Shown piece after piece: positions 15,837 to 57,474 of a stretch of 64,000 nt of DNA. Every line of letters begins with the position of its first letter. Within the stretch, counting starts at the first letter, position 1. The DNA lies in NCBI RefSeq assembly GCF_033115175.1, contig NC_084834.1, positions 7,785,294-7,849,293 on the forward strand, written 5' to 3'. Under the pieces are notes generated by a model, which made no database searches, had not been told where the DNA came from, and was given only the letters and a program-made list of their open reading frames with translations. A program made the translations under genes and the position numbers. The stretch comes from Lepus europaeus (taxonomy: Eukaryota > Chordata > Mammalia > Lagomorpha > Leporidae).

Positions 15837-16554
15837 AGGAAAATGCAAATAATAGAAACAAAGACGGACAATTAGGAAAACAGAACAGATAGATTATTTT
15901 AAATACTCCAGCAGCAGAGTGGAGAAGAGGAGAAAGGGTTCGACTCTGATTGGCCAAGATCTCAGAGCTGACAAAGGCAGGGCAGGGGCAGGAAGCCTGG
16001 GGTAGGGAGAACTGGGACCCTGACCAGCCTGCCTGGGTTGAAACCCTGCTCCTCCATTGCACATGACTGCTCAGAGAGGATTTCCTGAGAGCCAGGCTGT
16101 TCCCGGCAGCAGGCATGGTCCACACAAGTGCTCAGTGCAGTTCCACCCCCGGGACACATGCTCAGGGCACACGCCTTTGTTCTCACCACTATCACCCTCC
16201 CCCAAGGCTTCTGCCTTGCCCTTCATTGTGCCTGCACCAGCCCTGACCTCCAGCCCATCAGCACTCCCAGGGCCTGCTGGAATCCTGTCTGCACACAGAA
16301 ATCCCATCATGATGCTGTCTCACAGGACAGCTGTTCCCAGGGTGAGGCCCAGCCCCTCCCCGGGACCCAGCATCACCCAGAACCTTGCTCTGCAGCTCTC
16401 ACTCGCCTGCCTCTCAGGCAGCGTGAGCTCCCTGGGGCCCAGGCCCTTAGCCCAGGCTGGTCCCTCAGTTCCCGCGTGGGCTGAGGCCAGCTATCACCTC
16501 ACTGGTCACTCCGGCTGATCCACGCATCCCCTGCCTCCATGAGAGGTCGCTACT

Positions 16555-18415
16555 CCCCCCCCCCCCCCCCCCCCGCACAGTACTTAGGCCCCTGCACCCA
16601 CATGAGACCTGAAAAAGCTCTTGTCTCCTAGCTTACATCGGCCTAGCCCTACCCAGGCCATTGCAGACATTTAGGGAGGGAACCAGCAGATGGAAGATCT
16701 CTTTCCCCCTCTGTCCCCACCCTCCCCCACTCCCCCCCGCCCCGCCCTATTTGTTTTTAAGATTTCTTTCTGTTAGAAAGGCAAACAAACAAAAAGATGT
16801 GAGTGACTCAGCCCCCATGTCTTAATGCCCACAGGTTAGATGAGGGTTGACAGTCTCAGCCAGGCCCCATGGGCTCACTCCTCCTTTGCCAAGGAGCCTC
16901 CAGCCCTCCCTCACTGTACCCCCTGGGCACACTCGGCCTCAGGCCAGCCCCTCCCACAGCTGGGCAGACACAGAGGCTGCTCCCACTCTCCCATTAGGAC
17001 ACAGTGGGGAGCTGGGTTTTGTAGCAATTCCTTTTTATTTTTATTTTTTTTTAATTTGAGAGGTAGTGTTTTAGACCATGAGAGGGAGAGACAGGGAGAG
17101 GGAAAGAGGTCTTCCATCTGCTGGTTCGCTCCCCACATGGCAGCAATGGCCAAAACTGCACCAATCCGAAGCCAGGAGCCAGGTGATTCTTCCAAGTCTC
17201 CCAAGCGCATGCAGGGGCCCAAGCAAAGCACTTGGGTCATCTTGCCCTGGTTTCCAGGCCACAGAGAGCTGTAGCAATTCCATTTCAGAACACCTGGGTC
17301 GGGGCCGGCACTGCAGCACAGTACGTTAATCTTCCGCCTGTGGTGCCGGCATCCCAAATGGACACCGGTTCTAGTCCCGGCTGCTCTCTTCCCGTCCAGC
17401 TCTCTGCTATGGCCAGGGAACAGTAGAAGATGGCCCAAGTGCTTGGGCCCCTACAACAATGTGGGAGACCGAGAAGCTCCTGGCTCCTGGCTTCAGTCAT
17501 TGGGGGGGGGGGGGGGGGGGGGAGGACCAGTGGAAGGAAGACCTTTCTGTCTCTCCCTCTCACTGTTGGTAACTCTACATCTCAAATAAATAAAATCTTT
17601 AAAAGGGGGGGGGGGGGGCAGCGCTATGGTGCAGCTGGTTAACGCCCTGGCCTGAAGTGCCAGCATCCCATTTAGGGGCCATTTCAAAACCATCTGCTCC
17701 TCTTGTCATCCAGCTCTCTGCTATGGCCAGGGAAAGCGGTGGAAGGTGGCCTAAGACCTTGGGCCCCTGCACCCACATGGGAGACCTGGAAGAAGCTCCT
17801 GGCTCCAGGCTTCGCATCAGCGCAGCTCCGGCTGTTGCAGCCAATTGGGGAGTGAACCATCAGATGAAGACCTCTATGTCTCTCTCTCTCACTGTAACTC
17901 GACTTTCAAATAAATAAATAAATCTTTAAAAAAAATGAGAGGTAGAGTTACAGACAGTGAGAGGGAGCTGCACTGATACCAGGCCAGGAACCAGGAGCTT
18001 CTTTCAGGTCTCCCATGCGGGTGCAGGGACGGCTGGAGCCCTTATGGGAAACCGGCACTTCAGGCCAGGGCTTTAACCTGCTGCGCCACAGTGCCGGGCC
18101 CTGTAGCATTCCTTTTAGGAGCACCTGGGTCAGCCATTGATGTGGCTCAGTAGGTTAATCATCCGCCAGCGGTGCCGGCATCCCGTATGGGCACCGGATT
18201 CTGTCCTGGCTGCTCCTCTTCCCATCCAGCTCTCTGCTGTGGCCTGGGAAGGCAGTGGAGGATGGCCCAAGTGCTTGGGCCCTGAACCCGCATGGGAAGC
18301 TCCTTGGCTTCGGAGCCTTCTGGGCGTGAACCAGCGGAAGGAAGACCTTTCTCTCTGTCTCTCCCTCTCGCTATAATGCTACCTCTCAAATAAATAAAAC
18401 CTTAAAGAAAGGGAG
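16555..18415. repeat. Six SINE pieces of the left inverted arm
   Basis: A head-less plus-strand piece at 16575-16760 preceded by 20 Cs (16555-16574); minus-strand at about 17040-17265; plus-strand at about 17300-17600 with 21 Gs at 17502-17522; plus-strand at about 17619-17935, preceded by 14 Gs at 17605-17618; minus-strand fragment at 17936-18102; plus-strand at 18131-18415, internally shortened. Confidence 0.85.
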
Positions 18416-18542
18416 CTCCCGGGCCCCACAATACCTAAGCTGCCCTGAGATGTGGTTTCCCCGAAAGCGCGATCTCAGACCTCGCACAGAGCAGCGCCGG
18501 CCGACTCGGGACTCCGCTCCTGCTCCCGGCCCTCCCCTTCCC

Positions 18543-18613
18543 GCTTACCTGCAGCCGGTGATCCTAGCAGTCCCGAGCAGGTCCGGGTGTTTCTGCAGCC
18601 TGTCTAGGTCCAC
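18543..18613 (-). other. Candidate noncoding exon 1 plus splice donor (left arm)
   Basis: The minus strand carries ctgcag followed by gtaagc (plus-strand 18554-18543), as in the right arm. I see one base difference within the exon between the two arms. It could splice to the acceptor at 11745. Confidence 0.48.
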
Positions 18614-18730
18614 ACTGTCTGCTTAGCTGTGAGCTGCCTAAATAGGCTGGCGGGAGGGCGGGCATCTTCAGTCCCTGCCCCACAGCTGGAAGCCCCGCCC
18701 TGAGGAGGGTCACCCTGGGCGGGGTCACAG
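18613..18730 (-). promoter_or_regulatory. Candidate promoter of TRIM gene A (left arm)
   Basis: Mirror copy of the right-arm promoter. The TATA-like element is cctaaata on the plus strand at 18637-18644, and the GC boxes are at 18693-18700 and 18717-18724. It faces left, toward the TRIM gene whose ATG is at 11642. Confidence 0.5.
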
Positions 18731-19133
18731 TGTCCTTGAGGGGCTGCTGCTGGGGAGGGAATCACCTGAGATCCCATCAGGCCACGGTGGGCCTGGTGGT
18801 GAGAAGCTGATCTCATCTCTGCCTCTCAAGCCTCCATTAATCCCCAATGTGCTTAGAATGCCTGAATCCTGTCTGCTGTGGGGAAACTGAGGTCTCCAAG
18901 ACCGGGGAGCTTGGCCTCTCTGGTGTCACCCTGTGTTTCGTGAACAGTGCCCTGTGCAGGGCGAGGAGTGGGCGGCTCCACCCTGAGCAGGCAGACGTGG
19001 GGATGAGCGCACCCCAGCTCCTTGCCCCTGACAGCTTGCTGAGCCTGTCCTTGTCACTGCAGAGCCCTCGCTGGGGGAAGGCAGGCAGACAGGGTGGTGG
19101 CTGGAGAGCACTCTGCGCACCTCACACACAGGG

Positions 19134-19889
19134 CCAGACCGTGGGAACAATCCAAGCCAGGGACAGTTGTGCAGCTATGATGGCTGGGACTCCCGGAGCC
19201 ACTGACTCTGAGCAAGGAAGGAGCTGGGGACAAGGAGCCCTTGCAGGGGAAGAACCCCAGACACCAGCGCGTCAGCAGAAAGCCCCGAGCCATGAGGCGG
19301 CCAAGCCAGAGTGCTGTGGCTTCTGAGCCCCTGATGACGCCTTTTCAGGTTGATGTCCCAGGGTTAGAGTGACTCCCACTCTCCGCAATCCTCCACCCCA
19401 TTCCCACCCGGAGGCAAATACAGATCCTGCCTGTGCCCAGTGCCCTGGTGACCTCTGTACCCACTTAGCCTGCCTGGCCTCTTCAGTGACTCACTCCTAT
19501 AACCTTCTCCCTCACCCTATTCCACTCCCTATGTGTTTTCTTGTTTACATTGCAATTCTAATCCTGTTCCTTGAAACAGGAGGAGCAGTTTCTTTTGCTC
19601 TTGCAAGAGGTAATCTGTTTGCCAAGCTCCAGAAGAGCCTGCACAGTGCGGTTCCCCACCCATTCTCAATCTCCACCCCCACTACCCCGCTCTCTTTCCC
19701 CCTCCTTCAGCATACAGCAGCACAGGTCTTTGCATAGGCAGCCCCCCACACACACATCACAGGAACTCGTGTCTGATAAACACAGGGTATTCTACATGTA
19801 CACTTCGTTTTTCATAAGAACCCAGTCTAACGGTCACTTTCTCTGGGAAGCTCTGAACTCTGAAATTCTGTGACTCATCAATTTATTTG
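19134..19889. other. Unique DNA inside the left arm
   Basis: From the inner edge of the arm to the next SINE. GC-rich to about 19350, then CT-rich. No gene or RNA recognised. Confidence 0.35.
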
Positions 19890-20705
19890 GAGATTTTCTT
19901 TTTCTGTTTATTTATTTGAAAGGCAGATTACAGACACAGAGAAGGGCGGAAAGATGGGAGAGAGAGCTCTTCCACCCACTGGTTCACCCCTGAAATGTTG
20001 CAATGGCCAGACCTGGGCTGATCCAAAGCTAGGAGACAGTGAGCTTCTTCTGGGTCCCCCAGGCAGGGCCAGGGGCCCTCGCACCTGGGCCATCCTCCAC
20101 TGCCCTCCCAGGCCATTAGCAGGGAGCTGAATTGGAAGCGGAGCAGCTGGGACTCAAACTGGTGCCCATTTGGGATGCCGGCTCTGCACGCAGAGGCTCA
20201 ACCTACCACGCCACAGCTCCAGTCTCGGAGAATGTTTTCCTTACATGGATTGAAATTCATAACTGACTTCTAATATGTCACCTATATGCTTTTAAAATTC
20301 AAATGCAATCATCAATGGATAATGAGATTTTAAGGAATGACAAACATAATGCAGGAGTGTGGTTCCGGGACTGGCGCTGTGGTGCAGCGGGTTAAAGCCC
20401 TTGCCTGAAATCCCAGCATCCCATGTGGGCGCCGGTTCTAATCCAGGCTGTTCCTGTTCCCATCCAGCTCTCAGCTATGGCCTGGGAAAGCAGTAGAAGA
20501 TGGCCCAAGTCCTTGGGCCCCTGCACCCATGTGGAATCCCAGAAGAAGCTCCTGGATCCTGGCTTTGGATCGGCGCAGCTCTGGCCATTGCGGACATCTG
20601 GGGAGTCAAGCAGTGGATGGAAGACCTCTCTCTGTCTCTACCTCTCTCTGTAACTCTATCTTTCAAATAAATAAAATAAATCTTTAAAGAAAGACATTTA
20701 AAAAA
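19890..20705. repeat. C-SINE pair, opposite strands
   Basis: Minus-strand copy at about 19890-20226 and plus-strand copy at about 20369-20700. Confidence 0.85.
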
Positions 20706-20849
20706 AGAGTATGATCCCATAACATTCTTTTGCCACATGGTGTGGCTGCCATCTTGCTTTGGGTCAGTACACCCTATGATGTTTGCATGGTGACAAAATC
20801 ACTTCATGATACTATCTTTTGTACCTGAGTGAGGGCAAACAGAGGAGCA

Positions 20850-22300
20850 CCATACACTGATAAAGTCTGCTGGTCCTTTATTGCCGGCGGTGGAGAGTGG
20901 GCTTGTGCCCTAAAGAACTCTCGACCCTGAAGCCCAAAGCAACAGGGTCCACAAAAACAGGAGGGGCAATACATGGTTGCTAGGATCAGCGGGAATGCAT
21001 GGTTACCGTGGTCAAGCTAACCTAAGGCCTACGTGAAACTAATATCAATTATAACCTTGACGATACAAGTACAATATTTTTAAAGATTTATTTATTTCTT
21101 CGTAAGGCAGAGTTACAGAGGTGCGGAGGCAGAGAGAGAGAGAGGTCTTCCATCCACTGGTTCATTCCCCAAATGGCCGTAACAGCTGGAGCTGCACCAA
21201 TCTGAAGCCAGGAGCTTCTTCCAGGTCCCCCACAGGGCTACAGGGGTCCAAGAATTTGGGCCATCTTCTTCTGCCTTCCCGGGCCATAGCAGAAAGCTGG
21301 ATGGGAAGTGGAGCAGCTGGGACTCAAACCAGTGCCTGTATGGGATGCTGGCACTGCAGGCAGTGGCCCTACCTGCTACACCACAGTGCCGGTCCCACCA
21401 ATTAGAATTTTTTTTAAAGTTTTTTATTTTTTTTTTAAAGATTTATTTATTTGAAAGTCCGAGCTACAGAGAGAGAGAGAGAGAGAGTGAGAGAGGTCTT
21501 CCATCCAGTGGTTCACTCCCCAATTGGTTGCAATGGCCAGAGCTGTGCCGATCCAAAGCCAGGAGCCAGGAGCTTCCTCCCGATCTCCGATGAGGGTGCA
21601 GGGGCCCAAGGACTTGGGCCATCCTCTACTGCTTGCCCAGGCCATAGCAGAGAGCTGGATCGGAAGAGGAGCATCCGGGAACTGAACCAGCGCCCATAGG
21701 GGATGCCAGTGCTTCAGCCCAGGGTGTTAACCTGCTGTGCCACAGTGCCAGCCCCCAACAATTACAAATTTAACAATTTCAGTTATAATCTTGACATTAA
21801 TCCAGCTATTGGTCTAAATCATATGTGGTACATAGACAAATTACAATCTTATTAACCCAAGTACAGTCAATCTGTTTTTAAGCTTGAGTGACCATGCTAG
21901 GGGGTTTCTGTGCTCTGCAACCGGTGAAGCAGAGGACTGCTATTGTCTGAATTTTTGAGATCAGAGTTTCAGACCAGAGTCTCACGGTGGGGGGTGCTTT
22001 CTCAAGGTGGACTCCCTGCCGTCAAGGTGTCAGTTCAATGCATTCCTCAGAACACCCCATCATGAAGCCGCATACGACTGTATTTCATGGGTGCTTCCAA
22101 TCTATAAAACAGATTACATCTCAAAATATGAGTTTACAAATATCAGGAGAAAAGATAATAAGGACTGACAGATTAAGTATGTGTGTAGTTGGCCAAGCTT
22201 GTCAGTGGCTCTAATTTTGTGCAGGCCTTCACAATGCTCTCTGCTTTAAACTTTCCCAGCTAAGTCAACAATGATTTGGGAGACTCACAGAAGACAGATT
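20850..22300 (-). mobile_element. Possible antisense LTR or ERV remnant, split by SINEs
   Basis: On the minus strand, a gccggcaataaaggacc-type segment at about 20870-20890 looks like the R region of an LTR with its poly(A) signal. The DNA before and after the two inserted SINEs (21077-21397 and 21415-21755, both minus strand) shares motifs such as aatttcagttataatcttgac and tcaattataaccttgac, which suggests a local duplication. I see no viral protein frame. Weak call. Confidence 0.3.
21077..21757 (-). repeat. Two minus-strand C-SINEs
   Basis: About 21077-21397 and 21415-21755. The DNA on either side of the pair is similar in sequence. Confidence 0.85.
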
Positions 22301-22654
22301 TTCTGTGTTGAGAAGTAAACTGGCTCATAGAGGAGTCTAAAGGGATTTGCTGCTGGGAGTGACCCGGAGCCCTCTGCAGGGAGGAGCCCTTGTGTGGCTG
22401 AGCCCGTCTGATGGAAGCTCAACTTGCTGAATCTGCTTCCTTCAGAGGCTGGGCTCAGGCCAGAAGTCCAGGTCCTTCAGACTGGGTCCACACACTCTTG
22501 TCTGGGCAGAGGCTAATGTGAGGCCCTCGATCAACAACACCCATCCTTTGCCACCTGTTGCCCTCGGAGGTCCCACATCTACTTAGCACTTCCCACGCCT
22601 GCCCATCTTACCGCTGGCTGGGCTAGGGAGTCTTTAAGGTCTGGGATTTTTGTG
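22300..22654. other. Unique DNA, no feature seen
   Basis: Mixed-composition sequence between the possible LTR remnant and the next SINE group. Confidence 0.35.
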
Positions 22655-23376
22655 TTGGCCAGTGTGGCACAGCAGGGTAAGCTGCCACTCAGGATGCCCG
22701 CAAGAGCATATGGGAATAGTAGTTCAATGAGAAAATGTGCATGATGCGTAACAAGTAACATTTTTTTTTTTTGACAGGCAGAGTTGACAGTGATAGAGAG
22801 ACAGAGAGAAAGGTCTTCCTTTTGCCGTTGGTTCACCCTCCAATGGCCGCCGCGGTAGCGCGCTGCGGCCGGCGCACCGCGCTGTTCCGATGGCAGGAGC
22901 CAGGTGCTTCTCCTGGTCTCCCATGGGGTGCAGAGCCCAAACACTTGGGCCATCCTCCACTGCACTCCCTGGCCACAGCAGAGAGCTGGCCTGGAAGAGG
23001 GGCAACCGGGACAGGATCGGTGCCCCGACCGGGACTAGAACCCGGTGTGCCACAAGTAACATTTTTAAAAAAGATTTATTTTATTTATTTGAAAGGCAGA
23101 GTCACAGAAAGAGGCAAGAAAGAGGCGCGAGAGACAGAGAGAATCTTCCATGTGCTGGTTCACTCCCCAAGTGGCCTCAATGGCCATGGCTGGGCCAGGC
23201 CAAAGCCAGGAGCCAAAGTTTCTTCAGGATCTCCCACATGGCTACAAGGGCCCAAGCACTTGGACATCTTCCCTGCTTTCCCAGGCACATTAGCAGGAAG
23301 CTGGATCAGAAGTGGAGTAGCTGGGACCACAGGAGGAGGCTTAATCTATGCCACAGCTCCCGCCCCCATACAACTA
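22655..23376. repeat. SINE cluster
   Basis: A short plus-strand head piece at about 22655-22730, a minus-strand young-looking C-SINE at about 22748-23055 lacking its outermost head, and a minus-strand copy at about 23065-23375. Confidence 0.8.
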
Positions 23377-23535
23377 ACTTTTTAAGATGAGTATTTATCT
23401 TAAGTTCTAATTTGCAGGGGCACCTTTTTTTTTTTCCATAACCATAATGAGTCCTTGTACCTCTTCTTTATTTTATCTACATCTCTGTCTGCATGATTTC
23501 CACTGTCAAGGCTTTATTAAAATTTCTATGCTCGG

Positions 23536-24463
23536 GCCCGGTGCTGTGGCACAACAGGTTAAAGCCCCGTCCTGAAGTGCCGGCATCCCATAGGGGTGCC
23601 GGTTCTAGTCCCAGCTGCTCCTCTTCCAATCTATCTCTCTGCTATGGCCTGGGAAAGTAGTATAAGACGGCCCAAGTCCTTGCACCCACGCGGGAGACCC
23701 AGAAGAAGCTCCTGGCTCCTGGCTTCAGATTGGTGCAGCTCCAGCCATTGCGGCCATCTGGGGAGTGAACCAGTGGATGGAAGATCCCTCTGTCTCTACC
23801 TCTCTCTGTAACTCTGTCTTTCAAATAAAATAAAATAAATCTTAAAAAAATATTTCTAGGCTGGGGCCAGCCTTGTGGTGTAATGGGTAACATTGCAGCC
23901 CAAGATGCCTTTGTGCCCTGGATGCTCCACTTTTGATCCAGCCCCCTGCTAATGGCTGTAAAAAGCAGCAGAAGCCAGTGCCGTGGCTCACCTGGTTAAT
24001 CCTTTGCCTGCGGCGGTGGCATCCCATATGAGCACCAGTTCTAGTCCCGGCTGCTCCTCTTCCAGGCCAGCTCTCTGCTGTGGCCCGGGAAGGCAGTGGA
24101 GGATGGCCCCAGGGCTTGGGCCCTGCACCCACGTGGGAGACCAGGAAGAAGCACTCGGCTCCTGGCTTCGGATCAGCGCAGTGCCAGTCATGGCAGCCAT
24201 TTGGGTACTGAACCAAAGGAACGAAGACTTTTCTCTCTGTCTCTCTCACTGTCTATAACTCTATCTGTCAAATAAATAAATTAAAAAAAAAAAAGCAGCA
24301 GAAGACAGCCCAAGTGTTTGGACCCCTACTACCCATATGAGAGATCTGGATGAAGCTCCTGGCATTGGCCTGGAGAAAGACTTTCTCTCCCACTCTCAGC
24401 CTCTGCCCTGCCTCTGTGTAGCTTTGCCTTTCAAATAAATAAAATATCTTTAAAGAAAAGCAA
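23536..24463 (+). repeat. C-SINEs including a SINE inside a SINE
   Basis: One copy at about 23536-23855. A second copy at about 23864-24460 is split by a third at about 23975-24290. The insertion is flanked by the exact 14-base duplication aaaagcagcagaag at 23961-23974 and 24291-24304, which proves target-primed insertion. Confidence 0.9.
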
Positions 24464-25343
24464 AAATGCTTGGGATCACTAGCTATCAGAGGAATGCAAA
24501 TCAAAACCACAATGAGGTTTCACCTCACTCCCATTAGAACGGCTTTCATATAGAAATCAACAAATAACAAATGCAGGTGAGGATGTGGGGGAAAAAGTAC
24601 CCTAATCCTCTATTGGTGGGAATGTAAACTGGTAAAGCCACTATGGAAGACAGTATGGAGATACCTCACAAATCTGAATATAGACCTACCACATGACCCC
24701 AGCCATCCCATTCCTGGGAATTTACCCAAGGGAAATGAAATCAGCACATGAAAGAGTTATCTGCACCCCCATGTTATAGCCGCTCAATTCACAGTAGCTA
24801 AGCCATGGAATCAACCTAAATGCCTATCAACTGAAGGCTGGATAAAGAAAGTATGGGGTATGTATACCTCGGAGTACTACACAGCAGTAAAAGAATAATG
24901 AAATCCAGTCATTTGCAACAAAATGGATGAAACTGGAGAACATCACACCTAGTGAAATAAGCCAGTCCCAAAAGGACAGATACCATACGTTCTCCCTGAT
25001 CTGTGACAACTAACTGAGCACCTAAAAGGAAATCTGCAGAAGTGAAATTGACACTTTGAGAAGCAATGACTTTGAACAGCCCTTGTCTCAACTGTTAAGC
25101 AACAGTTTTTCCCCCATACTATTTGTTGAACTCTTAACATAGAGTTAATCATATGTGTATCAAGTTCATTGAAAACAGATCTTAGTAAAAAATAAGGATG
25201 GGAATAGGAGAGGGAGGAGGGCGGGTATGATGGGAAGATCACCATGTTCAGTGGCAAGAATCACTATGTTCTGAAAATTGCAATTGTGAAATGTATGAAG
25301 TTTGCATTCCTTAAATAAAAGTTTTCTGAGGAGAAAAAAAAAA
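24464..25343 (+). mobile_element. L1 3' end (copy 2)
   Basis: Starts inside ORF2 at the region that in other L1s reads as the block before the conserved IPFLG segment, and continues to the ORF2 stop at 25011-25013, the 3' UTR and a poly(A). It is 5'-truncated, with SINE sequence directly upstream. It extends copy 1 upstream by about 290 bases. Confidence 0.85.
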
Positions 25344-26003
25344 GAAACCTCTTTTCCTGACAACTCTTTGTTTTTTAAAAAAGATTAATTTATTTATTTG
25401 AAAGTCAGAATTACACAGAGAGGCAGAGAGAGAGAGAGAGAGAGATCGGTCTTCCATCCGATGGTTCACTCCCGAATTAGCCACAATGGCTGGAGCTGAG
25501 CTGAACCGAAGCCAGGAGCCAGGAGCTTCTTCCGGGTCTCCCACGCGGGTGCAGGGGCCCAAGGACTTGGGCCATATTCCACTGCCTTCCCAGGCCATAG
25601 CAGAGAGCTGAATCGGAAGAGCAGCAGCTGGGACTAGAACCGGCGACCATATGGGATGCTGGCGCTTCAGGCCAGGGCGTTAACCTGCTTCACCAGGGCA
25701 CCTTCGACAACTCTTTCAAAAACAAAACAAATAGAAAAAAGTCTGTCTTTAAGCAGAGGGTTAACGCCCTGGCCTGAAGTGCTGGCATCCCACATGGGTG
25801 CTGGTTCGAATCAGGACTGCTCCTCTTCCAATCCAGCTCACTGCTATGGCCTGGGAAAGCAGCTGAACATGGTCCAACTCCCCCCCCCCCCCCCCCCCGG
25901 AAGGAGCTCCTGGCTTCAGATCGGCGCAGCTCTGGCCGTTGCAGCCAATTGGGGAGTGAATCATCAGATGGAAGACCTCTCTCTCTCTCTCTCTCTCTGG
26001 AAG

Positions 26004-35939: not shown

Positions 35940-37406
35940 TTATCTTTCATGATCTGGAACTGGTAAGATTTTAAGAGGTTCAGAATCTGTTCCAACACAG
36001 AAATATGGCCAAACAGCTTCAGTAAAAGAATCTTGAAAAGTACAGAGAAGAGACTTGTCACTCATATCATAAAAGGAAACCTCACCCAATTCATAATCTA
36101 GGAAAATACCAATTCTCCTGGGCCCTGCTACTGGCAGAAGCTGGGTTCTCCTGGGACCCAAGGCAACACATCCACTCTTAGTGCATCGCCCAATTGCCCA
36201 GAAGCCATCTCGGACTGAGGGCTGATTCCGCCAATTCCTAGGAAGACAGCCTTGACATATACCCAATGTCCATTTAGGTTTGTTTCCCACCTCCACCTCC
36301 CAGTAATATCTTCCAGAACTAAACTGGTTAGCACCCAGGACAGCAGGGCACAGATAAAATCTCTTTGGGTGATAGCAAACATTTTGCTTTGTTCTTCCAT
36401 ATTGCACAGCTTTTCTGTTCTCAGAGATAAGAAGATGAGGGTGTGCTGTGTTGAGATCTAGAATCACATTTACTTGAAATTGCTTAATAATTCTGTCTAA
36501 GCCAGAATACTGCACAGGAAGCCTAAAACCATACTTCTTTAAACTGAATGTGAAGAGTTCAGGGTGTTTTAGGTTTTGATATCTGTGGTGGATACTCTTG
36601 ACATGGGTGAGTAATTCCAAGTCTGGCTTCATATACTGGCCCTCCACATCCCTCAGCAGGTGTTTTAATGTAGAAACATGCCCTGAAAATGTTACAATGT
36701 TTTCATGAAGTTTGGCTAAAATGTTCATCTCTTCATCTCGTAACTGTCTCAGAATAACCTCTTGCTCATGCTGTAGAAACAGCCTGCTTTGCACAAATTC
36801 ACAGTGTATTTCCTGTTTCCTGCGTTTTACCCTCTTCCTCAGTGCCACAGATTTCCTGCACTGCAGGGCTATCACCTTTCCAACTCGTTCCACATTATTC
36901 TTCATGGGCTCAATGCTACATTTTAGGATTTTCCTGTGGTAAGCAGCAGCTTTCTTAATGGGGCAAATGTAGTGCTTGCGGTGTTTGGTAGAGAAACTGC
37001 ACTGTGTACATAAAATCTCTAGGTCCTTCACACAGAAAAGGGTCAGAAATTGATTGTGCTTTTCACACACAGGCCTTTCTTCCTGCCTCTTTCTCTTGCT
37101 CCTTCTGATCTGAAGAAGCTGAGCAACTTCAATCAAATTACGGAGCTGGGGGTTCTTCCTGAGGTTCCTTTCTGGAAAGCAAAATCGGCAGACAGGGCAA
37201 GGAAAACAATCATCTAGATCCTTCCAGGAAAAACTGAGGCAGGAGTAACAGAAGTTGTGCCCACAGATGAGTGTCACTGGATCTTTCAAATAATCCAGAC
37301 AGATAGGACAGCCAGATTCCACCTGGAGGTCTGCCAGTGCTGTCTCAAACTCCACTGAGTCACGAACAGAGGTGGTGGGTAAGGCGAGACCTCGTGACAA
37401 GGCCAT
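35940..37406 (-). CDS. TRIM60: TRIM60 ortholog, RING-Bbox-coiled coil-PRY/SPRY protein
   Basis: A 488-residue single-exon ORF that closely matches human TRIM60 as I remember it, including the run IRRSKRKRQ and the block around VKDLEILCTQCSFSTKH. It is a probable E3 ubiquitin ligase. Numbering from the ATG at 37406, RING ligands are C33, C36, C48, H50, C53, C56, C70 and C73; B-box2 ligands are C114, H117, C125, D128, C133, C136, H142 and H145; the coiled coil spans about 155-300; PRY-SPRY spans about 314-488. The residue aligned to the human initiator Met is Val18 (GTG at 37355-37353), so the first usable ATG lies 17 codons upstream, in a good context (G at -3 and +4). An in-frame TTG four codons further up is not a likely start. 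A TGA in the same frame closes the reading frame upstream. The gene lies in the spacer between the inverted arms. Confidence 0.92.
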   Translation of the reverse strand: MALSRGLALPTTSVRDSVEFETALADLQVESGCPICLDYLKDPVTLICGHNFCYSCLSFSWKDLDDCFPCPVCRFCFPERNLRKNPQLRNLIEVAQLLQIRRSKRKRQEERPVCEKHNQFLTLFCVKDLEILCTQCSFSTKHRKHYICPIKKAAAYHRKILKCSIEPMKNNVERVGKVIALQCRKSVALRKRVKRRKQEIHCEFVQSRLFLQHEQEVILRQLRDEEMNILAKLHENIVTFSGHVSTLKHLLRDVEGQYMKPDLELLTHVKSIHHRYQNLKHPELFTFSLKKYGFRLPVQYSGLDRIIKQFQVNVILDLNTAHPHLLISENRKAVQYGRTKQNVCYHPKRFYLCPAVLGANQFSSGRYYWEVEVGNKPKWTLGICQGCLPRNWRNQPSVRDGFWAIGRCTKSGCVALGPRRTQLLPVAGPRRIGIFLDYELGEVSFYDMSDKSLLCTFQDSFTEAVWPYFCVGTDSEPLKILPVPDHER

Positions 37407-38029
37407 CTCAGAGCTCAAGAGTGAGATGGGAGTCCCTCCAGGTCCTTCAAGACTGACCAGCTTCAGGTCTCAGTTCCTGGGCACTCTGAGAGCAGTCACT
37501 GGAATCTTACTTAGTCTCCTGCTTCTCAGCTTAAAGAACAAGAATTCAAAGCTTACAGCCCTACCACAGGTTAGCACATCTGGACTTCAGTGTAATGACT
37601 CTCTTCTTCAAGAAAGTAGCCACAGGTCTAATGGAACAATCATCCCTGTGGGTGAGACATAATTTTTAATACCAAAAATCTACTGGATTTGAAAACATAT
37701 TATAAATGATTCTGGCAAAAATAATCAGTAAACATAAAAACTATTGAGGAAATTTTATGAGCAAATAGGACATCCACAGTCTTAAAATATTACCCTTGGA
37801 ATTACAATTTTAATTGCAAAGAGAGAAAATAAATACCTTTATGATGCAGAGATGCAGAGAATCTGGGGCTTACCACCAGAATCAATGATGAGAAGACAAA
37901 CAGATGATCTGCAAGAGAAGAAAAACACTGGCACTTGGGGAAAATTCTTGTAAAAAAAGAAAACAAAATTATTTTATCTGAATTTAATCAGAGGTAAATA
38001 ATCACAAAAACATAAATATAAAAATTTGG
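37407..38029 (-). other. 5' flank of TRIM60
   Basis: SINE-free DNA upstream of the start codon. Possible splice acceptor ctgctctcag ending near 37486 on the minus strand, which would place a 5' UTR exon edge about 80 bases before the ATG. No TATA box or GC box is evident, so the promoter is probably further upstream. Confidence 0.35.
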
Positions 38030-47921: not shown

Positions 47922-48838
47922 GAGGCTGGCGCTGTGGCCCAGCGGGTTAACACTCTGGCCTGAAGCGCCAGCATCCCATATTGGCGCCGGTTCTAGTCCC
48001 GGCTGCTCCTCTTCCCTTCCAGCTCTCTGCTGTGGCCTGGGCAAGCAGTGGAGGATGGCCCAAGTGCTTGGGCCCTGCACCCACGTGGGAGACCCGGAAG
48101 AAGCACCTGGCTCCTGGCTTCAAATCAGCGCAGCTCCGGGCCATAGCAGCCATCTGGGGAGTGGACTAGTGGATGGAAGACCTCTCTCTGTAACTCTTTA
48201 AAATAATTAAATCTTTTAAAAAAAAAAAAAGATTGTATCTATTTATCGGAAGGATTCACTCCATAAACAAAGCCAGAAGCTAGGAACTCCATCCGGGTCT
48301 CTCAGTTGGAGGCAGGGGCCCCTGCACTTGGCTAGCTTCCTGCCTTCCCAAGCACGTTAGCAGGAAGCTGGAAGGGAAGCTGAGCAGCCAGGGCTCCAAC
48401 CGACGTGCGGGCAGCATCTCCGCTCCCTGTACGACACGGGTCCCCCTCCAAACTTCTCATTACAAAAGGTGGCTAAGTCCACCAGGCGCACCACGGGGTA
48501 TGGGAGAGCCTAATATCCCAACGAATTCTTTGGAGGTCACGTGGACAACTCCCAAACTGGCCTAAATCACATTCTTCTTATAACAATTAAAGTGGCTCCG
48601 CCATCTCCCTCCTCAATAAACAGGTACGAACCACGGCCCGGGGTCTTTCTTTTCTTCTTCCTTCCTTCCCTTATTCTTTTTTAAAGATGTATTATGTTAT
48701 GACAAAATTGGAGCCTCAGGGAGAAACCAGTCTTCCATGAACTGGTTCACTCCCCAAAAGAAAGAAACTGTGGCCACAGGCGCTGCCGCGTGTCTCCGTA
48801 GGCAGCTTTACCCGCTCCGCCACAACCCGGGGCCGCCA
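47922..48838. repeat. SINE group left of the 49-kb promoter-like segment
   Basis: Plus-strand copy at about 47922-48230, minus-strand copies at about 48240-48445 and 48690-48838. The head of the last one abuts the CpG-rich segment. Confidence 0.75.
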
Positions 48839-49212
48839 TCTTTTCTCCCTTGAAAATGACTCCACACAGGTAAAAGCCGCGACGACTGTGGCCACAGCTG
48901 AGGGCCAGGAAGCCCCTGCCCAGTGCAGCCTCCTCCCACCAGGCCCGCTGGGCCCTTCCGAGCCTCTCCCGGCCTACCTCAAATGGCCCGCTCGGGGCAT
49001 CAGCACCCACCACAGAGGGCCTCCAGCGCGGGAAAGGGCAGATTCCAACGGCTCACGGGCACACTGCACATGCGCAGTGACCAGACTTCCGGGGCCGGGG
49101 CGGGGACAGAGCCCGCGCATGCCCAGTGGCTCTGGTTGGAGGGGCGCGTGTGAGATGGCGGTTACAGGCATCCTTCCCCGTCCCACCTACCGACGCTATT
49201 GCTTGGATGAGA
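48835..49212. promoter_or_regulatory. CpG-rich, possibly bidirectional promoter
   Basis: TATA-less CpG-rich DNA with an ETS-type acttccgg (49085-49092), NRF1-type motifs (catgcgcag near 49068-49076 and gcgcatgc at 49115-49122), a GC box in ggggccggggcgggg near 49091-49105, and a YY1-type gatggcgg at 49153-49160 on the plus strand. On the minus strand, aagatggcggcc spans the SINE junction at about 48832-48843. These motifs are typical of housekeeping promoters. It lies 11.4 kb upstream of TRIM60 on the minus strand and could supply that gene's promoter, or the first exon of another transcript on the plus strand. After ATG at 49154 only about 22 non-SINE codons follow. Confidence 0.45.
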
Positions 49213-49310
49213 ACCTCATCTGGGGAGTGAACCGGCAGATGGAAGACCTACCTCTCTCTCTCTCTCTCTCTGCCTCTGCCTCTCTAAATAAATAAAGCTT
49301 TAAAAAAAGA
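49213..49310 (+). repeat. 5'-truncated C-SINE
   Basis: Only the 3' third, from ctggggagtgaacc to the A-rich tail, inserted directly after the CpG-rich segment. Confidence 0.8.
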
Positions 49311-50340
49311 AAAGAATCCCTTAGTTTTGAAAGCCTTTCATGGATAAGGTGTCTAGGAGCGACTGGAAAAACATGTTGCAGGCCAGTGGTTGTGTTGAGG
49401 AATGGTGAAACCCAGATCCACACAGAGGCAGTTCATGCTTATGGCTCCAGTATGCCCCCAAATACATAGTTAACGGAAGTCCTCCCATGGTTCAAAGATC
49501 AATTACCATGGTATATTGTGAGTGATTCCATAAAGTACAAATTACATGAACACAGAAGGCAGAAGTCTGTAGCCATTATTCAAGACCAAGGTATTATTCC
49601 TTGGTCTTGAAAACTAAAGAAATTTGCTTTGCTATATTTCAAAATGGCCTTGGAGACAGCAAACCCTGATAATTTAATCACTAGCAAGAGGTCAGTCTGG
49701 TCACATACTTTGATTGCTCCTGTAATCATTTTCTGACAGTGACTCTCCTAATTTAGGTTCTCTAAATTTTAGGATTTTTTTGTTTCTATTTATTTAATTT
49801 TAGCCATCAAGACAGGTTAAGAATCTCCCATAAATTATCAAATCCCAGGTTCCTTTTTACTTAACAGCTATTTCTGAAAATTATTTCTTTCCCCTTTTAC
49901 CATGAGCTGCAAAAAGAAACCAGGCTGCATTATCAACACATTGCTTTCAAATGTCAGCAAAATTTCCATGTTCATAATTTGTAAGTTCTTTGCACCACAC
50001 AACATCGGATGCAATTGCGTTCTCCCTTTCTACAATAAGAATCTCCTTTCCTCCAGATTCAGAGTATGTTCCTCATTCTCTTCTAATACTCACCATGAGT
50101 ACTTGTAAGGTTCATGTTTCTACAACAGTCTCCTTAAGAAAATATATGTATTCTGTAAGGTTAAAGTTATCTTCTCTCGAATCCCTGTTGGACTGATCAA
50201 TCCTATTATCTTTAATACAGTTTAGAATTTAGACTCTTTCAATAATGTCAAAGGAAATCTTGATGAAATTAACTGAAAGTGATCATTCTTCTATATTGAT
50301 CGATTTTCCCCAGAAAAGATAATTTAAAGCACAGCAATCT
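49311..50340. other. Unique AT-rich DNA, no feature seen
   Basis: About 1 kb with a short perfect inverted repeat (near 49580-49612, accaaggtattattccttggt) that could form a small hairpin. No gene recognised. Confidence 0.4.
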
Positions 50341-50576
50341 GACTCATACTACCTAAAGTGATTTCCTTATTCAATTCAATCCCCATCAAAATACCAATGA
50401 AATTCTTCACAGAACCAGGGGAAAAAAAAAAAAAAAAAACTCCTAAGATTCACAGGGAAGTACAAAAGACCCCAAATATTCAAAGCAATCTTGAACAACA
50501 ACAAAAATCTGAAGGTATCATGATACCTGATTTCAAGACAAACTGAAGAGCTATTATAATCAAAATGGGATGATGC

Positions 50577-50922
50577 AGGCCGGCGCCGCGGCTCACTAGG
50601 CTAAGCCTCCGCCTTGCGGCGCTGGCACACGGGGTTCTAGTCCCGGTCGGGGCACCGATCCTGTCCCGGTTGCCCCTCTTCCAGGCCAGCTCTCTGCTGT
50701 GGCCTGGGAGTGCAGTGGAGGATGGCCCACGTCCCTGGGCCCTGCACCCGCATGGGAGACCAGGAGAAGCACCTGGCTCCTGCCATCGGATCAGCGCGGT
50801 GCGCCGGCCGCAGCACGCCTACCGCGGCGGCCATTGGAGGGTGAACCAATGGCAAAAGGAAGACCTTTCTCTCTGTCTCTCTCTCTCTCACTGTCCACTC
50901 TGCCTGTCAAAAAAAAAAAATA
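50577..50922 (+). repeat. C-SINE inside the L1 relic
   Basis: Young-looking copy. The flanking L1 sequence is duplicated as aatgggatgatgc before and aataggatgatgc after, one base apart. Confidence 0.88.
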
Positions 50923-51255
50923 GGATGATGCTTTCATAAACACACATAAACCAAGGGGACACTACAGAGAACCCAGAAATGAAACCATACACTTGGACCC
51001 AAATGATTCTCAACAAAGGCACCAAAGACAAACACTGGAGAAAGGAATACTCCCCCAATAAATGGGATACTGATACTGGACATCCATGATAAGAAAACTG
51101 AATCCTTTAGAGAAAGACAGAAAATTGAGTCTTGACCCCACTCACCTACATCTCAGTCTATGCAAAAATAAATGCAAAATGGATCAAAGACCTGAATGTG
51201 AAACATGCAACTGCAAGAAGAAAATCTAAGAGAAGCAAAGCAGGACACTAGCATA

Positions 51256-52618
51256 GGACTGGTGTTGTGGCGTGGTGGGTTAAGTCACAATCATTGTGGA
51301 AGATCTCTGTCTTTCCTCTCTGTCTCTCTCTGTAACTGCCCATATTGGAGTGCTGGTTCGAGTTCCAGCTGCTCCACTTCTGATCTCACTTCCTGCTAAT
51401 GAGCCTGGTAGCTGTAACCCTGCAACCCATATGGGAGACACAGATGGAGTTCCTGGCTCCTGGCTTCTGCCCAGCCCAGTCCCTATCATCATAGCCATTT
51501 GGGAAATGAACTAGTGGATGGAAGATTTCTTACTCTTTGTCTCTGTTTAACTTTGCCTTTCAAATAAAATCAACCTTTTTAAAAAGGACACTGGTATAGC
51601 AATTTTTTGCACAAGATCCCAAAAGCAAAGGCAACAGAAGTAAAACTAGACAAATGGGATTATAAAAAACTAAGAGGGGCTGGTGTCATGGTGCAGGTTA
51701 ATCCTCCGCCTGTGGCACTGGCATCCCATCTGGGCGGTGGTTATAGTCCCAGCTGTACCTCTTCCAATCCAGCTCCCTGCTATGGCCTGGGAAAGCTGTA
51801 GAAGATAGCCTAAGTACTTGGGCCCCTGCACCCGCATGGGAGACCTGGAAGAAGCTCCTGGCTCCTGGCTTCGGATCAGCCCAGCTCTAGCTGTTGCAGC
51901 CATTTGGGGAGTGAACCAGTGGATGGAAGTCCTCTCTCTCTGTCTTGCCCTCTCACTGTCTGTAATTCTACCTCTCAAACAGATAAATAAAAATTAAAAA
52001 AAAAAAACTAAGAAGTTTATGAACAGCACAATAAACAACACTATAAGGAGACAACTGACACAATGTCAGAACTTATTTGTAAACTATTCATCTAACAAAA
52101 GATTAATCTTCAGAATATATAAGGAACTCCAAAAACTCTAAAATAAAAAAAAAATCTAGTTTAAGAAATAAGTAGAGACCCTGAATAGACATTTCAGAAA
52201 AGAAGAGAAACAAATGGTCAAGGAATGTATGACAATTACTGAGTATCTCTAGCCATTAGGAAAATGCAGATCAAAACCATAATATGGGCACTATGTGGCA
52301 GGTTTAAGCCAGGACTACTTGGGATGCCCACAGTCCATATCAGAGTGTCCTGTTTGAGTACCAGTTACTTTGCACTTCCAATTCAGCTTCCTGCAATTGT
52401 GAACTCTGGGAGGCAGAAGACCGCCCAATTCCTTGAGTTCCTGCCATGCCTGTGGGAGATCTAGATGGAGTTCCTAGCAATTACCTTCGGATTGGCTTAA
52501 CCTGTATGTTGCAGACATTAGGGGAGTGAACTAGTCTCTGGAAGATCTTTCTCTTGCTTACTTGTTCTTTTTCTCTTTCCCTGTTATTTTTTTCAAACAA
52601 ATAAATATTATTTAAAAG
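51256..52618 (+). repeat. Three plus-strand SINEs inside the L1 relic
   Basis: About 51258-51586, 51677-51995 and 52286-52618. The second has a near-exact target duplication around aaaaaactaagag / aaaaaactaagaa. Confidence 0.8.
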
Positions 52619-52671
52619 GCATGAGCTATGTTACTCTAATTAGAGTGGTTGTTATCAAGAAGGCATAAAAT

Positions 52672-53560
52672 TGGGGCTGGCATAGTGGAGTAGCAGGTAG
52701 AGCTGCCATCCACCATGCTGGCATCCCATATGGCTGCCTGCTCATGTCCTGGCTGCTCCATTTCTGATCCAGCTTCCTCCTAATGGCCTGGGAAAATCAA
52801 TGAAAGGTGGCCCAGGTGTCTGGGTCCCCCTGCCACCCATGGCCCAGCCCTGGTTGGTGTAGCATCTGGAGAGTAAGCCAGCAGATGCAAAATCTCTCTC
52901 TCTCAATCTGACTTTCAAATAAATAAATAAACTTTTTTTAAAGCCCCGGCCTGCAGCGCTGGCATCCCACATGAGCACGAGTTCTAATCCTGGTTGCTCC
53001 ACTTCCCATCCAGCATCCTACTAATGCACCTGGGAAAGTAGTGGAGAACGGCCCATGTGCTTGGACCTCTGAACCCACATGGGATACTCAGAAGCTCCTG
53101 GCTCCTGGCCTCACCCTGGCTCAGTTCTGGCTGTTGCAGCCATTTGGAGAGTAAGCCAGCAGGTGGAAGATCTCTGTCTCTCCTCTGTCTCTCTCTGTAA
53201 CTCTGCCTTTCAAATACATAGATAAATCTTTAAAAAATATTAAATCTTAAAAAAAAAAAGATGATGCAAAATAACATGGGCCCAGTATTGTGGCACCAGC
53301 AGGTTAAGCCACTGCTTGTAGTGCCAGAATTCCATATCAAACTGCCTATAATCCAGCTCCCTGATAATGTATCACGGAAGGCCACATGGGCCCTTGCCAT
53401 CCTTGTGGGAGACTGGATGGAGTTCCTGGCTATTGGATTCAGCATGGCCCAGCCCTGATTTTGCAGGAGTGGGAAGTGAACCAGCAGATGAAAGCACTCT
53501 CTCTCCGTCTTTCTCTATCACTCTGTTTCAAGAGATGAAGATAAACATTAAAAAGAAAAA
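52672..53560 (+). repeat. Three more plus-strand SINEs in tandem
   Basis: About 52672-52940, 52942-53245 and 53280-53560. The second lacks its head, as though inserted in the tail of the first. Confidence 0.75.
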
Positions 53561-54094
53561 GAAAATCAAGCTAAGGGAGACAAAGACAGTTCCTGAATCA
53601 GTTGATTGCAGGACACACAAAAGCAGAATAAGCAGAAACAATCTGAAAGAATATAAAGATACATATCACAGAAATATCCACTTTCCTTCAGGGGAGGAAA
53701 GAAACTTGGTGGCTACGCTTTGGAGGGCTGAATGGGATTTGGATAAACCCGACCAGGAGTCAGCAGATGCTCAGAAGCCACTATGCTGCAGGCTCTGCTG
53801 CTCCCTGGCCCCGGGCTTTCCCCTGCTCTATTCCTGCTTCCCTGGGGGCTCTTTTCTTGCAAGGGATCCCACCCCAATTCCTTCCTTTCTCAAGGTCAGT
53901 GACACAGGGAGCTCCGGTGCTAGCTAATCCCAGGGCCTCCGGCTATGTGTCCTTGGTGGCACAGTCCTCGCAAGAGACCCCTGCATGTTGTGGGAGAAAG
54001 CATCCTCTACAGTCACAGAATAGGGTCCAGCCATTGTAAGTGGCAGGGAGCCCAAGATGGACTGAGCCCACATGGCTACAGCTCAGGACAGAGC
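53561..54094. other. Unique DNA before the right arm
   Basis: About 530 bases with no SINE and no recognised gene. Confidence 0.35.
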
Positions 54095-54504
54095 CATCGT
54101 CTCCTGTGTGTGAGGTGCGCAGAGTGCTCTCCAGTCACCACCCTGTCTGCCTGCCTTCCCCCAGCGAGGGCTCTGCAGTGACAAGGACAGGCTCAGCCAG
54201 CTGTCAGGGGCAAGGAGCCGGGGTGCGCTCCGCCCCACGTCTGCCTGCTCAGGGTGGAGCTGTCTGCTCCTCGCCCTGCACAGGGCACTGTTCACGAAAC
54301 ACAGGGTGACACCAGAGAGGCCAAGCTCCCCGGTCTTGGAGACCTCAGTTTCCCCACAGCAGACAGGATTCATGCATTCTAAGCAGATTGGGGATTCATG
54401 GAGGCTTGAGAGGCAGAGATGAGATCAGCTTCTCACCACCAGGCCCACCGTGGCCTGATGGGATCTCAGGTGATTCCCTCCCCAGCAGCAGCCCCTCAAG
54501 GACA

Positions 54505-54622
54505 CTGTGACCCCGCCCAGGGTGACCCTCCTCAGGGCGGGGCTTCCAGCTGTGGGGCAGGGACTGAAGATGCCCGCCCTCCCGCCAGCCTATTTAGGCA
54601 GCTCACAGCTAAGCAGACAGTG
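54505..54622 (+). promoter_or_regulatory. Candidate promoter of TRIM gene B (right arm)
   Basis: Two GC boxes in opposite orientation (ccccgccc at 54511-54518 and gggcgggg at 54535-54542) lie upstream of a TATA-like tatttagg at 54591-54598. The predicted start is near 54622. Base composition is GC-rich compared with the flanks. The promoter role is inferred from motif spacing and from the splice donor that follows. Confidence 0.5.
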
Positions 54623-54692
54623 TGGACCTAGACAGGCTGCAGAAACACCCGGACCTGCTTGGGACTGCTAGGATCACCGGCTGCAGGTAAGC
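54622..54692 (+). other. Candidate noncoding exon 1 plus splice donor (right arm)
   Basis: The stretch from the inferred start to ctgcag (54681-54686) is followed by gtaagc at 54687-54692, a strong donor match. It has no open frame beginning with ATG, which fits a 5' UTR exon spliced to the single coding exon at 59888 onward. Confidence 0.5.
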
Positions 54693-54829
54693 GGGAAGGG
54701 GAGGGCCGGGAGCAGGAGCGGAGTCCCCAGTCGGCCGGCGCTGCTCTGTGCGAGGTCTGAGATCGCGCTTTCGGGGAAACCACATCTCAGGGCAGCTTAG
54801 GTATTGTGGGGCCCGGGAGCTCCCTTTTT

Positions 54830-56655
54830 TAAGGTTTTATTTATTTGAGAGGTAGCATTATAGCGAGAGGGAGAGACAGAGAGAAAGGTCTTCCTTCCGC
54901 TGGTTCACGCCCAGAAGGCTCAGAAGCCAGGAGCTTCCCATGCGGGTTCAGGGCCCAAGCACTTGGGCCATCCTCCACTGCCTTCCCAGGCCACAGCAGA
55001 GAGCTGGATGGGAAGAGGAGCAGCCAGGACAGAATCCGGTGCCCATACGGGATGCCGGCGCCACTGGCGGATGATTAACCTACTGTGCCACAGCAATGGC
55101 TGACCCAGGTGCTCCTAAAAGGAATGCTACAGGGCCCGGCACTGTGGCGCAGCAGGTTAAAGCCCTGGCCTGAAGTGCCGGTTTCCCATAAGGGCTCCAG
55201 CCGTCCCTGCACCCGCATGGGAGACCTGAAAGAAGCTCCTGGTTCCTGGCCTGGTATCAGTGCAGCTCCCTCTCACTGTCTGTAACTCTACCTCTCATTT
55301 TTTTTTAAAGATATATTAATTTATTTGAAAGTCTAGTTACAGTGAGAGAGAGAGAGAGAGAGAGGTCTTCATCTGATGGTTCACTCCCCAATTGGCCTTA
55401 ACAGCCGGAAGTGCGCTGAAGCGAAGCCAGGAGCCAGGAGCTTCTTCCAGGTCTCCACGTGGGTGCAGGGGCCCAAGGTCTTAGGTCACCTTCCACTGCT
55501 TTCCCAGGCCATAGCAGAGAGCTGGATCACAAGAGGAGCAGATGGTTTTGAAATGGCCCCTAAATGGGATGCTGGCGCTTCAGGCCAGGGCGTTAACCCA
55601 CTGCACCACAGCGCTGCCCCCTTCCCCCCTTTTAAAGATTTTATTTATTTGAGATGTAGAGTTACCAACAGTGAGAGGGAGAGACAGAAAGGTCTTCCTT
55701 CCACTGGTTCACTCCCCAAATGACTGAAGCCAGGAGCCAGGAGCTTTCGGTCTCCCACATTGGTGCAGGGGCCCAAGCACTTGGGCCATCTTCTACTGTT
55801 TTCCCTGGCCATAGCAGAGAGCTGGACGGGAAGAGAGCAGCCAGGACTAGAACGGGTGTCCATCTGGGATGCCGGCACCACAGGCGGAAGATTAACGTAC
55901 TGTGCTGCAGCGCCGGCCCCGACCCAGGTGTTCTGAAATGGAATTGCTACAGCTCTCTGCTGTGGCCTGGAAACCAGGGGAAGATGACCCAAGTGCTTTG
56001 CTTGGGCCCCTGCACGCACTTGGGAGACTTAGAAGAATCACCTGGCTCCTGGCTTCAGATTGGTGCAGTTTTGGCCATTGTAGCCATGTGGGGAGTGAAC
56101 CAGCAGATGGAAGACCTCTTTCCCTCTCCCTGTCTCTCCCTCTCATGGTCTAAAACACTACCTCTCAAATTAAAAAATATATATATAAAGGAATTGCTAC
56201 AAAACCCAGCTCCCCACTGTGTCCTAATGGGAGAGTGGGAGCAGCCTCTGTGTCTGCCCAGCTGTGGGAGGGGCTGGCCTGAGGCCGAGTGTGCCCAGGG
56301 GGTACAGTGAGGGAGGGCTGGAGGTTCAGTGGCAGAGGAGGAGTGAGCCCATGGGGCCTGGCTGAGACTGTCAACCCTCATCTAACCTGTGGGCATTAAG
56401 ACATGGGGGCTGAGTCACTCACATCTTTTTGTTTGTTTGCCTTTCTAACAAAGAAAGAAATCTTAAAAACAACCAGGGCGGGGGTGGGGGGGAGTGGGGG
56501 AGGGTAGGGACAGAGAGGGAAAGAGATCTTCCATCTGCTGGTTCACTCCCTAAATGTCTGCAATGGCCTGGGTAGGGCTAGGCGGATGGAAGCTAGGAGA
56601 CAAGAGCTTTTTTCAGGTCTCATGTGGGTGCAGGGGCCTAAGTACTGTGCGGGGG
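54830..56655. repeat. Six SINE pieces of the right inverted arm
   Basis: Minus strand at about 54830-55100, plus-strand fragment at about 55132-55305, minus strand at about 55308-55618 and 55632-55920, plus strand at about 55950-56190, and a minus-strand head-less piece at about 56460-56655. Orthologous by position to those in the left arm. Confidence 0.85.
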
Positions 56656-57474
56656 GGGAGGGGGATGACCTCTCATGGAGGCAGGGGATGCGTGGATCAG
56701 CCGGAGTGACCAATGAGGTGATAGCTGGCCTCAGCCCACGCGGGAACTGAGGGACCAGCCTGGGCTAAGGGGCTGGGCCCCAGGGAGCTCACGCTGCCTG
56801 ACAGGCAGGTGAGTGAGAGCTGCAGAGCAAGGTTCTGGGTGATGCTGGGTCCCGGGGAGGGGCTGGGCCTCACCCTGGGAACAGCTGTCCTGTGAGACAG
56901 CGTCATGATGGGATTTCTGTGTGCAGATGGGATTCCAGGAGGCCCTGGGAGTGCTGATGGGCTGGAGGTCAGGGCTGGTGCAGGCACAATGAAGGGCAAG
57001 GCAGAAGCCTTGGGGGAGGGTGGTAGTGGTGAGAACAAAGGCGTGTGTCCTGAGCATGAGTCCCGAGGGTGGAACAGCACTGAGCACTTGTGTGGACCAT
57101 GCCTGCTGCCGGGAACAGCCTGGCTCTCAGGAAATCCTCTCTGAGCAGTCCAAGGTTCCACGTGTGCAATGGAGAAGCCAGGGTTTCAACCCAGGCAGGC
57201 TGGTCAGGGTCCCAGTTCTCCCTACCCCAGGCTTCCTGCCCCTGCCCTGCCTTTGTCAGCTCTGAGATCTCTCAATGATATGAGACAGAACAATTCTATC
57301 CATGCTGCTCCTGGATTATTAAAAATTATATACTTTGCTTAATAATTGGTTATTTGTTTCCAATTTACAATCACTTGAATCAAGAAATTATGCGTTATTC
57401 CATTTTTTAATGCATAAATGTAACTTATAGACTTATCTCAATTATACCTGGGAATGTTTACCAGGATGTACTCT

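Follow-up and report, generated by a model that had tools for sequence, protein, structure and literature searches.

A promoter and first-exon module shared by three TRIM genes of Lepus europaeus is best read as evolving in concert

We analysed a 64,000-nucleotide stretch of Lepus europaeus DNA (contig NC_084834.1 of assembly GCF_033115175.1, forward-strand positions 7,785,294–7,849,293; hereafter the window), which is part of a TRIM60/61/75-type gene cluster, and examined it together with the 130 kb taken on its two sides (194 kb in total; outside positions are given in window coordinates). TRIM gene A lies on the minus strand (coding exon 10317–11642, within the stop-to-stop frame 10317–11666) and encodes 441 amino acids with RING, B-box and PRY-SPRY domains. 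TRIM gene B lies on the plus strand (coding exon 60035–61426, within the frame 59942–61426), encodes 463 amino acids and belongs to the TRIM75 clade. Both open reading frames specify intact RING/B-box/PRY-SPRY proteins. Upstream of A is a left arm (15957–19132, minus strand) and upstream of B a right arm (54103–57270, plus strand), and self-BLAST pairs 15957–19132 with 57270–54103 at 95.344% identity over 3200 columns; no other non-self match of the window is stronger. The arms are inverted and 34,970 bases apart. The initial annotation had described two inverted 3.2-kb arms some 35 kb apart, the left aimed at A and the right at B, and this description holds, as each arm reads in the sense direction of the single-exon TRIM coding region that lies downstream of it. 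Between the two arms, 3144 ungapped columns hold 93 mismatches and a three-way alignment shows 18 indel events; the repeat stretches within the arms sit at the same places in A and B. Immediately outside the arms the mismatch is 66/134 and 60/137, so the switch from arm similarity to flank divergence is sharp.

A third arm (−19552 to −16514, minus strand) is found beyond the left edge of the window, upstream of another complete copy of A, which we call A′ (stop-to-stop frame −25197 to −23839, minus strand; coding exon compared as −25197 to −23863). It belongs to a tandem duplication around gene A, offset by about 35.5 kb, in which the gene and its surroundings recur left of the window. Window positions 1–25700 match about −41000 to −1 in a tandem duplication that is broken, the offsets being near 25, 35.5 and 41 kb. 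The third arm lacks a stretch present in both other arms and carries about 0.3 kb of its own; it is about as alike to the A and B arms as these are to each other, and all three copies are in sense orientation towards their TRIM gene. The view that a regulatory module and not a whole gene was duplicated or kept alike stands for the pair A–B but is incomplete, since three copies were found and A/A′ is a whole-gene tandem duplication. When the whole right arm was compared with the genome, the three arm places were recovered and the other matches listed fell on repeat stretches (40 of 31848 candidates scored); the nearly repeat-free interval 53743–54815 matched three places (3 of 3 candidates scored). 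A profile search of the 194 kb found no module near the remaining TRIM genes of the cluster, C, D and E, the best expect value beyond the three known copies being 0.17 with a 700-base model and 0.48 with a 220-base model.

The most alike part of the arms covers the promoter and candidate exon 1 (18535–18837, minus strand, for A; 54398–54700, plus strand, for B), with an A–B mismatch of 1/303. In B this region contains GC boxes at 54513 (−), 54535 (+) and 54574 (−) and a TATTTA motif at 54591. A candidate noncoding exon 1 occupies 54621–54686 (plus strand) in B, its predicted start placed about 30 bases past TATTTA and its donor GT at 54687; the candidate exon 1 of A occupies 18549–18614 (minus strand), its start likewise predicted and its donor GT beginning at 18548. 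There is no ATG within 54615–54686 on the sense strand of B. The A and B copies have one differing base across 54440 to 54720 (B coordinates). CpG observed/expected is 0.40–0.45 in the promoter region, hence the module promoter is not a classical CpG island. All three copies carry the donor CAG/GTAAGC, at 54687 (+), 18548 (−) and −17098 (−). Its matrix score of 11.25 is reached by 7 sites on both strands of the 194 kb, and 3 of these are the arm copies. The GC boxes, the TATA-like motif and the exon ending in gtaagc thus lie where they had been reported in both arms. Rfam returned nothing at gathering thresholds.

On the acceptor side, the best candidate for A has its first exon base at 12060 (minus strand; score 13.3), with a further candidate at 12272 (10.7), and the best for B is at 59743 (plus strand; 10.8). 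The acceptors proposed in the initial annotation fared unequally: the B site, first exon base 59888, is fair (8.5, second to 59743), but the A site at 11745 (exon start 11744) scores only 4.0 and was rejected in favour of the two stronger sites. Two other sites were also set aside. Position 56809 is not a second conserved donor, as it reads CAG/GTGAGT in B only and A and A′ have GCGAGT; and the strong donor at 75197, upstream of E, is not a relative of the module, as it lies in a CpG-island-like stretch where the profile has no match. We infer that the module drives the TRIM genes towards which it points.

The coding regions are much older than the arms appear to be. Proteins A and B are identical at 154 of 437 residues (35%), and proteins B and E at 257 of 463. 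We placed the six cluster proteins, with 34 hand-picked from 233, in a midpoint-rooted maximum-likelihood tree of 40 proteins. A, A′ and rabbit U3KMX7 fall in a 13-member clade with sloth, manatee, elephant, bear, hippopotamus, donkey, rhinoceros and others (support 100/100); its members are annotated TRIM60-like or TRIM75-like, and the clade is a separate one. Within it A and A′ pair as sisters, with rabbit outside the pair (100/99). B groups with rabbit, armadillo, manatee, elephant, horse and others (95/92) inside a 15-row TRIM75 clade (100/99), which also holds E; C and D belong to the TRIM60/61 clade. The A clade and the TRIM75 clade each hold Afrotheria, Xenarthra and Boreoeutheria, and the tree places the A–B split before the placental radiation. 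With a split of that age and an arm divergence of 3%, the arms cannot date from that split.

Diverged homology continues past the arms on both sides. The distal flank of the left arm (19137–19354, minus strand) is colinear with that of the right arm (53743–53966, plus strand), and its best part, A 19354–19190 with B 53743–53911, has 68.4% identity over 171 bases. No match outside the arms and coding exons ranks higher when the A and B loci are compared with repeats masked (expect value 1e-8); the expect value is 6.6e-5 in a genome search with three candidate places scored. The alignment adjoining the arm has a score of 237, where 1942 random placements gave at most 161, and it reaches A 19137, four bases from the arm. 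An origin of this similarity in a repeat was rejected, with the reservation that the search behind it, which gave no partner besides A′, covered 194 kb at an expect value of 0.01. On the proximal side a weaker colinear homology (15836–15952, minus strand, with 57273–57377, plus strand) directly adjoins the arm, A 15952–15836 against B 57273–57377 having a score of 162, where 1988 random placements gave at most 145. The evidence that the arms lie inside older paralogous DNA is good on the distal side and moderate on the proximal side, as judged from these alignments.

Furthermore, identity among the copies is a patchwork. By arm part, A and B mismatch at 12/295 in the distal edge, 1/303 in the promoter and exon 1, 1/121 in the next part, 7/498 in the start of intron 1, which derives from short interspersed nuclear elements (SINEs), and 72/1927 in the rest of the arm. 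Both the promoter with exon 1 (p 0.0004) and the SINE part (p 0.007) differ from the rest of the arm, and they do not differ from one another (p 0.27). Promoter constraint alone is insufficient to account for this, since the neighbouring SINE is also unusually alike. Between A and A′ the mismatches number 1/898 in the core, 60/1488 in the proximal arm and 38/3200 in the intron between coding exon and arm, the last figure being the sum of 16 windows of 200 bases picked by hand from a window series. In the proximal arm the three copies are about equidistant (A–B 71/1913, A–A′ 60/1488, A′–B 51/1483). This mixture of identities fits a history in which the copies exchanged sequence repeatedly.

The coding exons of A and A′ behave differently again. 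They differ by 91 nucleotides, with a synonymous divergence (dS) of 0.070 and a nonsynonymous divergence (dN) of 0.073, dN being highest in PRY-SPRY (0.118). The synonymous differences (20/296) exceed those of the adjacent intron (38/3200, 1.2%; p 2e-8), making the coding exons more diverged than the nearby intron, a contrast weakened by windows elsewhere in the A–A′ comparison: 16/200 in the noncoding window 9648–9848, just past the 3′ end of the gene, and 8 and 7 of 200 near 21.7 and 22.1 kb. Either the introns and promoter were homogenized after the A/A′ duplication, or the coding exons received changes from elsewhere. We do not claim positive selection on A/A′, because dN/dS is 1.03 and dN minus dS is at or below zero in 45% of 1000 bootstraps.

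Taken together, the data fit best with a promoter module that evolves in concert among three TRIM genes. Specifically, the arms would be tracts of interlocus gene conversion within older paralogous promoter DNA, not a freshly pasted module, a reading to which we give a probability of roughly 60%. Three things found here speak for conversion: the paralogs are older than the similarity of the tract, diverged homology flanks it on both sides (strong distally, weak proximally), and identity is patchy along it. The initial annotation had left open whether the module was duplicated or kept alike, and we favour kept alike, by gene conversion, because diverged colinear homology runs past the arms and the coding regions long predate the arm divergence. 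Several points weigh against this view. In B, 136 bases (53967–54102) intervene between the distal homology and the arm edge, and the proximal homology is short. A looser control matched for GC content, which kept paralogous and repeat pairs in, reached the score of 162 in 1 of 2578 random pairs and that of 237 in 8 of 1968, and the genome-wide figure for the distal flank rests on the three scored places. The longest identical A–B run, 262 bases over the promoter, indicates only modest clustering (permutation p 0.03), and the part borders used in the patchiness tests were set after viewing the data. Conversion is usually proved by a paralog similarity within species that exceeds the similarity between species, and our comparison of arm DNA covers the hare copies only. 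Lastly, no sign of the module was detected at E, although E is closer to B than A is, and what A and B share may therefore stem from an older copying event instead of the first gene duplication.

A single recent event could also have produced the arms, if a 3.2-kb piece was pasted once in inverted orientation, by a replication-based process, from upstream of A to B or the reverse, giving one gene a new promoter. Such a paste would account for the sharp arm edges of B against both A and A′, which run on alike, and for the finding of only three copies in the genome. It would not leave diverged colinear homology outside the arm, as is seen distally and more weakly proximally, and it predicts neither mismatches as uneven as 1/303, 7/498 and 72/1927 in adjoining parts nor an A–A′ mismatch of 60/1488 in the proximal arm against 38/3200 nearer the gene; we consider it unlikely, though not negligible. 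Purifying selection acting on the promoter alone, holding old arms alike with no conversion, agrees with the promoter and exon 1 being the most alike part, and is very improbable given that the adjoining SINE-derived intron is also unusually alike (p 0.007) and that identity is 96% in the remaining 1.9 kb of the arm, of which about half is repeats, against 68% or less in the flanks. It is scarcely credible that an assembly error, or a second haplotype left unmerged, accounts for one arm or for the A/A′ tandem: the few differences between A and A′ in the intron between coding exon and arm (38/3200) point that way, but the copies carry private changes and indels (A–B 93 mismatches and 18 indel events), the A/A′ coding exons are 91 nucleotides apart, and the A and A′ proteins are, letter for letter, separate database entries on one 130.6-Mb contig. 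The function of the module raises a different question, compatible with conversion, namely whether it is a real promoter of separate noncoding RNAs and A and B start elsewhere. The 5–6.5 kb between donor and coding exon and the private strong donor of B at 56809 lend this some colour. The module is nevertheless in sense towards its TRIM gene in three of three copies, the strong donor is kept in all three, and mouse Rnf35, of the same cluster, is reported to be bi-exonic with an untranslated exon 1 (PMC2724483), which leaves noncoding transcripts a doubtful explanation, if one to be taken seriously.

Under gene conversion, the inverted and partly alike promoter regions would pair, and recombination repair would copy one over the other, probably more than once, homogenizing the promoter, exon 1 and the SINE-filled start of intron 1. 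The A and B coding exons would stay outside the tract and keep diversifying, since at 35% amino-acid identity they are too different to pair well; selection may also favour conversion tracts that end before the coding exon. Transcription is predicted to begin about 30 bases past TATTTA, near 54621 in B and near 18614 in A. The noncoding exon 1 of about 66 bases would end at the CAG/GTAAGC donor and be spliced over 5–6.5 kb to the single coding exon of A (at about 12060) or B (at about 59743), and the shared module would give the paralogs a common expression programme. Tentatively, and with clearly less assurance than for conversion itself, we propose that the promoter and exon 1 module of A, A′ and B evolves in concert by repeated conversion across the inverted repeat as the coding exons diversify freely.

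The other TRIM genes are C (open frame 35940–37469, minus strand; TRIM60/61 clade), which lies between the arms with no module detected nearby, D (stop-to-stop frame −44141 to −42714, plus strand), to the left of the window, and E (88382–89830, plus strand), to its right. The block 19132–54103, which holds C, is bounded by the inverted 95% repeats and could invert by recombination. A, A′, B, C, D and E are six single open frames of 441–473 amino acids, the length of C being counted from the Val codon aligned with the Met of D. A, B and C pass the Pfam cut-offs for all four domains (RING, B-box, PRY and SPRY), and PRY was found in A′, D and E, which were scanned for PRY only. C has Val at the position of the start Met of its relative D; an N-terminal extension of C is likely, because its first Met sits upstream, at 37406. 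Proteins A′ and E are letter for letter those of Lepus europaeus database entries. An intact B protein is absent among the best 120 of 1599 database matches, and the closest in identity to B among the matches listed is rabbit P0002 (79%), a 393-amino-acid entry with no listed RING domain. Open frames at 80438–85038 (minus strand) and −67003 to −65087 (plus strand), one of them of 1169 codons, overlap an outer inverted match of 4.9 kb at 93.6%; these frames resemble LINE-1, and the SINEs of the locus resemble lagomorph CSINEs. CpG-rich stretches with good donors lie at −50762 and 75197, either side of the cluster, and are perhaps the starts of the bordering genes. The TRIM60/61/75 cluster is reported to be bordered by TMEM192 and APELA (PMC10145180).

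Most descriptions of gene conversion have it homogenizing copies of coding sequence. In this cluster its apparent reach is confined to the promoter, exon 1 and the start of intron 1, in genes whose split precedes the placental radiation. If this is true, regulation and coding sequence are uncoupled in the cluster, the former being homogenized as the latter diversifies, and the cluster offers a natural test of whether conversion maintains co-expression across a gene family that is diversifying. Orthology and dating based on promoters could then be badly wrong in TRIM clusters, and the inverted repeat would leave the 35-kb block that contains gene C liable to invert recurrently.

The closest known system is in the same cluster. 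Mouse Rnf33/Trim60 and Rnf35/Trim61, which are juxtaposed, are reported to share one promoter at the two-cell stage (Chen et al. 2002, as cited in PMC2568002 and PMC2724483), and with the bi-exonic Rnf35 these reports mean that the two-exon structure and co-regulation through a common promoter are already known for the cluster. Mouse and hare have in common the TRIM60/61/75 cluster and the intronless coding region, with an untranslated exon 1 in Rnf35; co-expression of paralogs through a common promoter, reported for the mouse two-cell embryo, would be a further shared feature. They differ in that the mouse is reported to use one promoter for neighbours, whereas no single physical promoter serves two genes in the hare, which has one module copy per gene, inverted and 35 kb apart. 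As to expression elsewhere, bat TRIM60/75 copies are described as numerous, seldom transcribed in the four tissues studied, and without induction by interferon (PMC10145180), and mouse Trim75 has been studied in oocytes in a report that cites TRIM60 as testis-specific (PMC4790955).

Among systems with conversion, the human and chimpanzee GSTT2 genes are also inverted duplicates in which conversion is reported to spread a promoter mutation; that duplication is given as at least 7 million years old with human copies 99.4% alike, whereas the hare A and B proteins are only 35% identical (PMC3375281). In the yeast chromosome XIV flip/flop region, related genes are likewise reported as homogenized and linked with a 24-kb block found in two orientations; the inversion polymorphism is described as established there (PMC9731477), and in the hare inversion is a prediction. 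Our searches of an open-licence library, judged by titles and abstract openings except for the papers named here, turned up no comparable case of conversion limited to the promoter between old paralogs. In the Arabidopsis halleri HMA4 cluster, conversion and selection are again reported to act on different parts of paralogs, but as a mirror image of the hare arrangement, the coding sequences being homogenized by conversion and positive selection acting in the promoters (PMC3749932).

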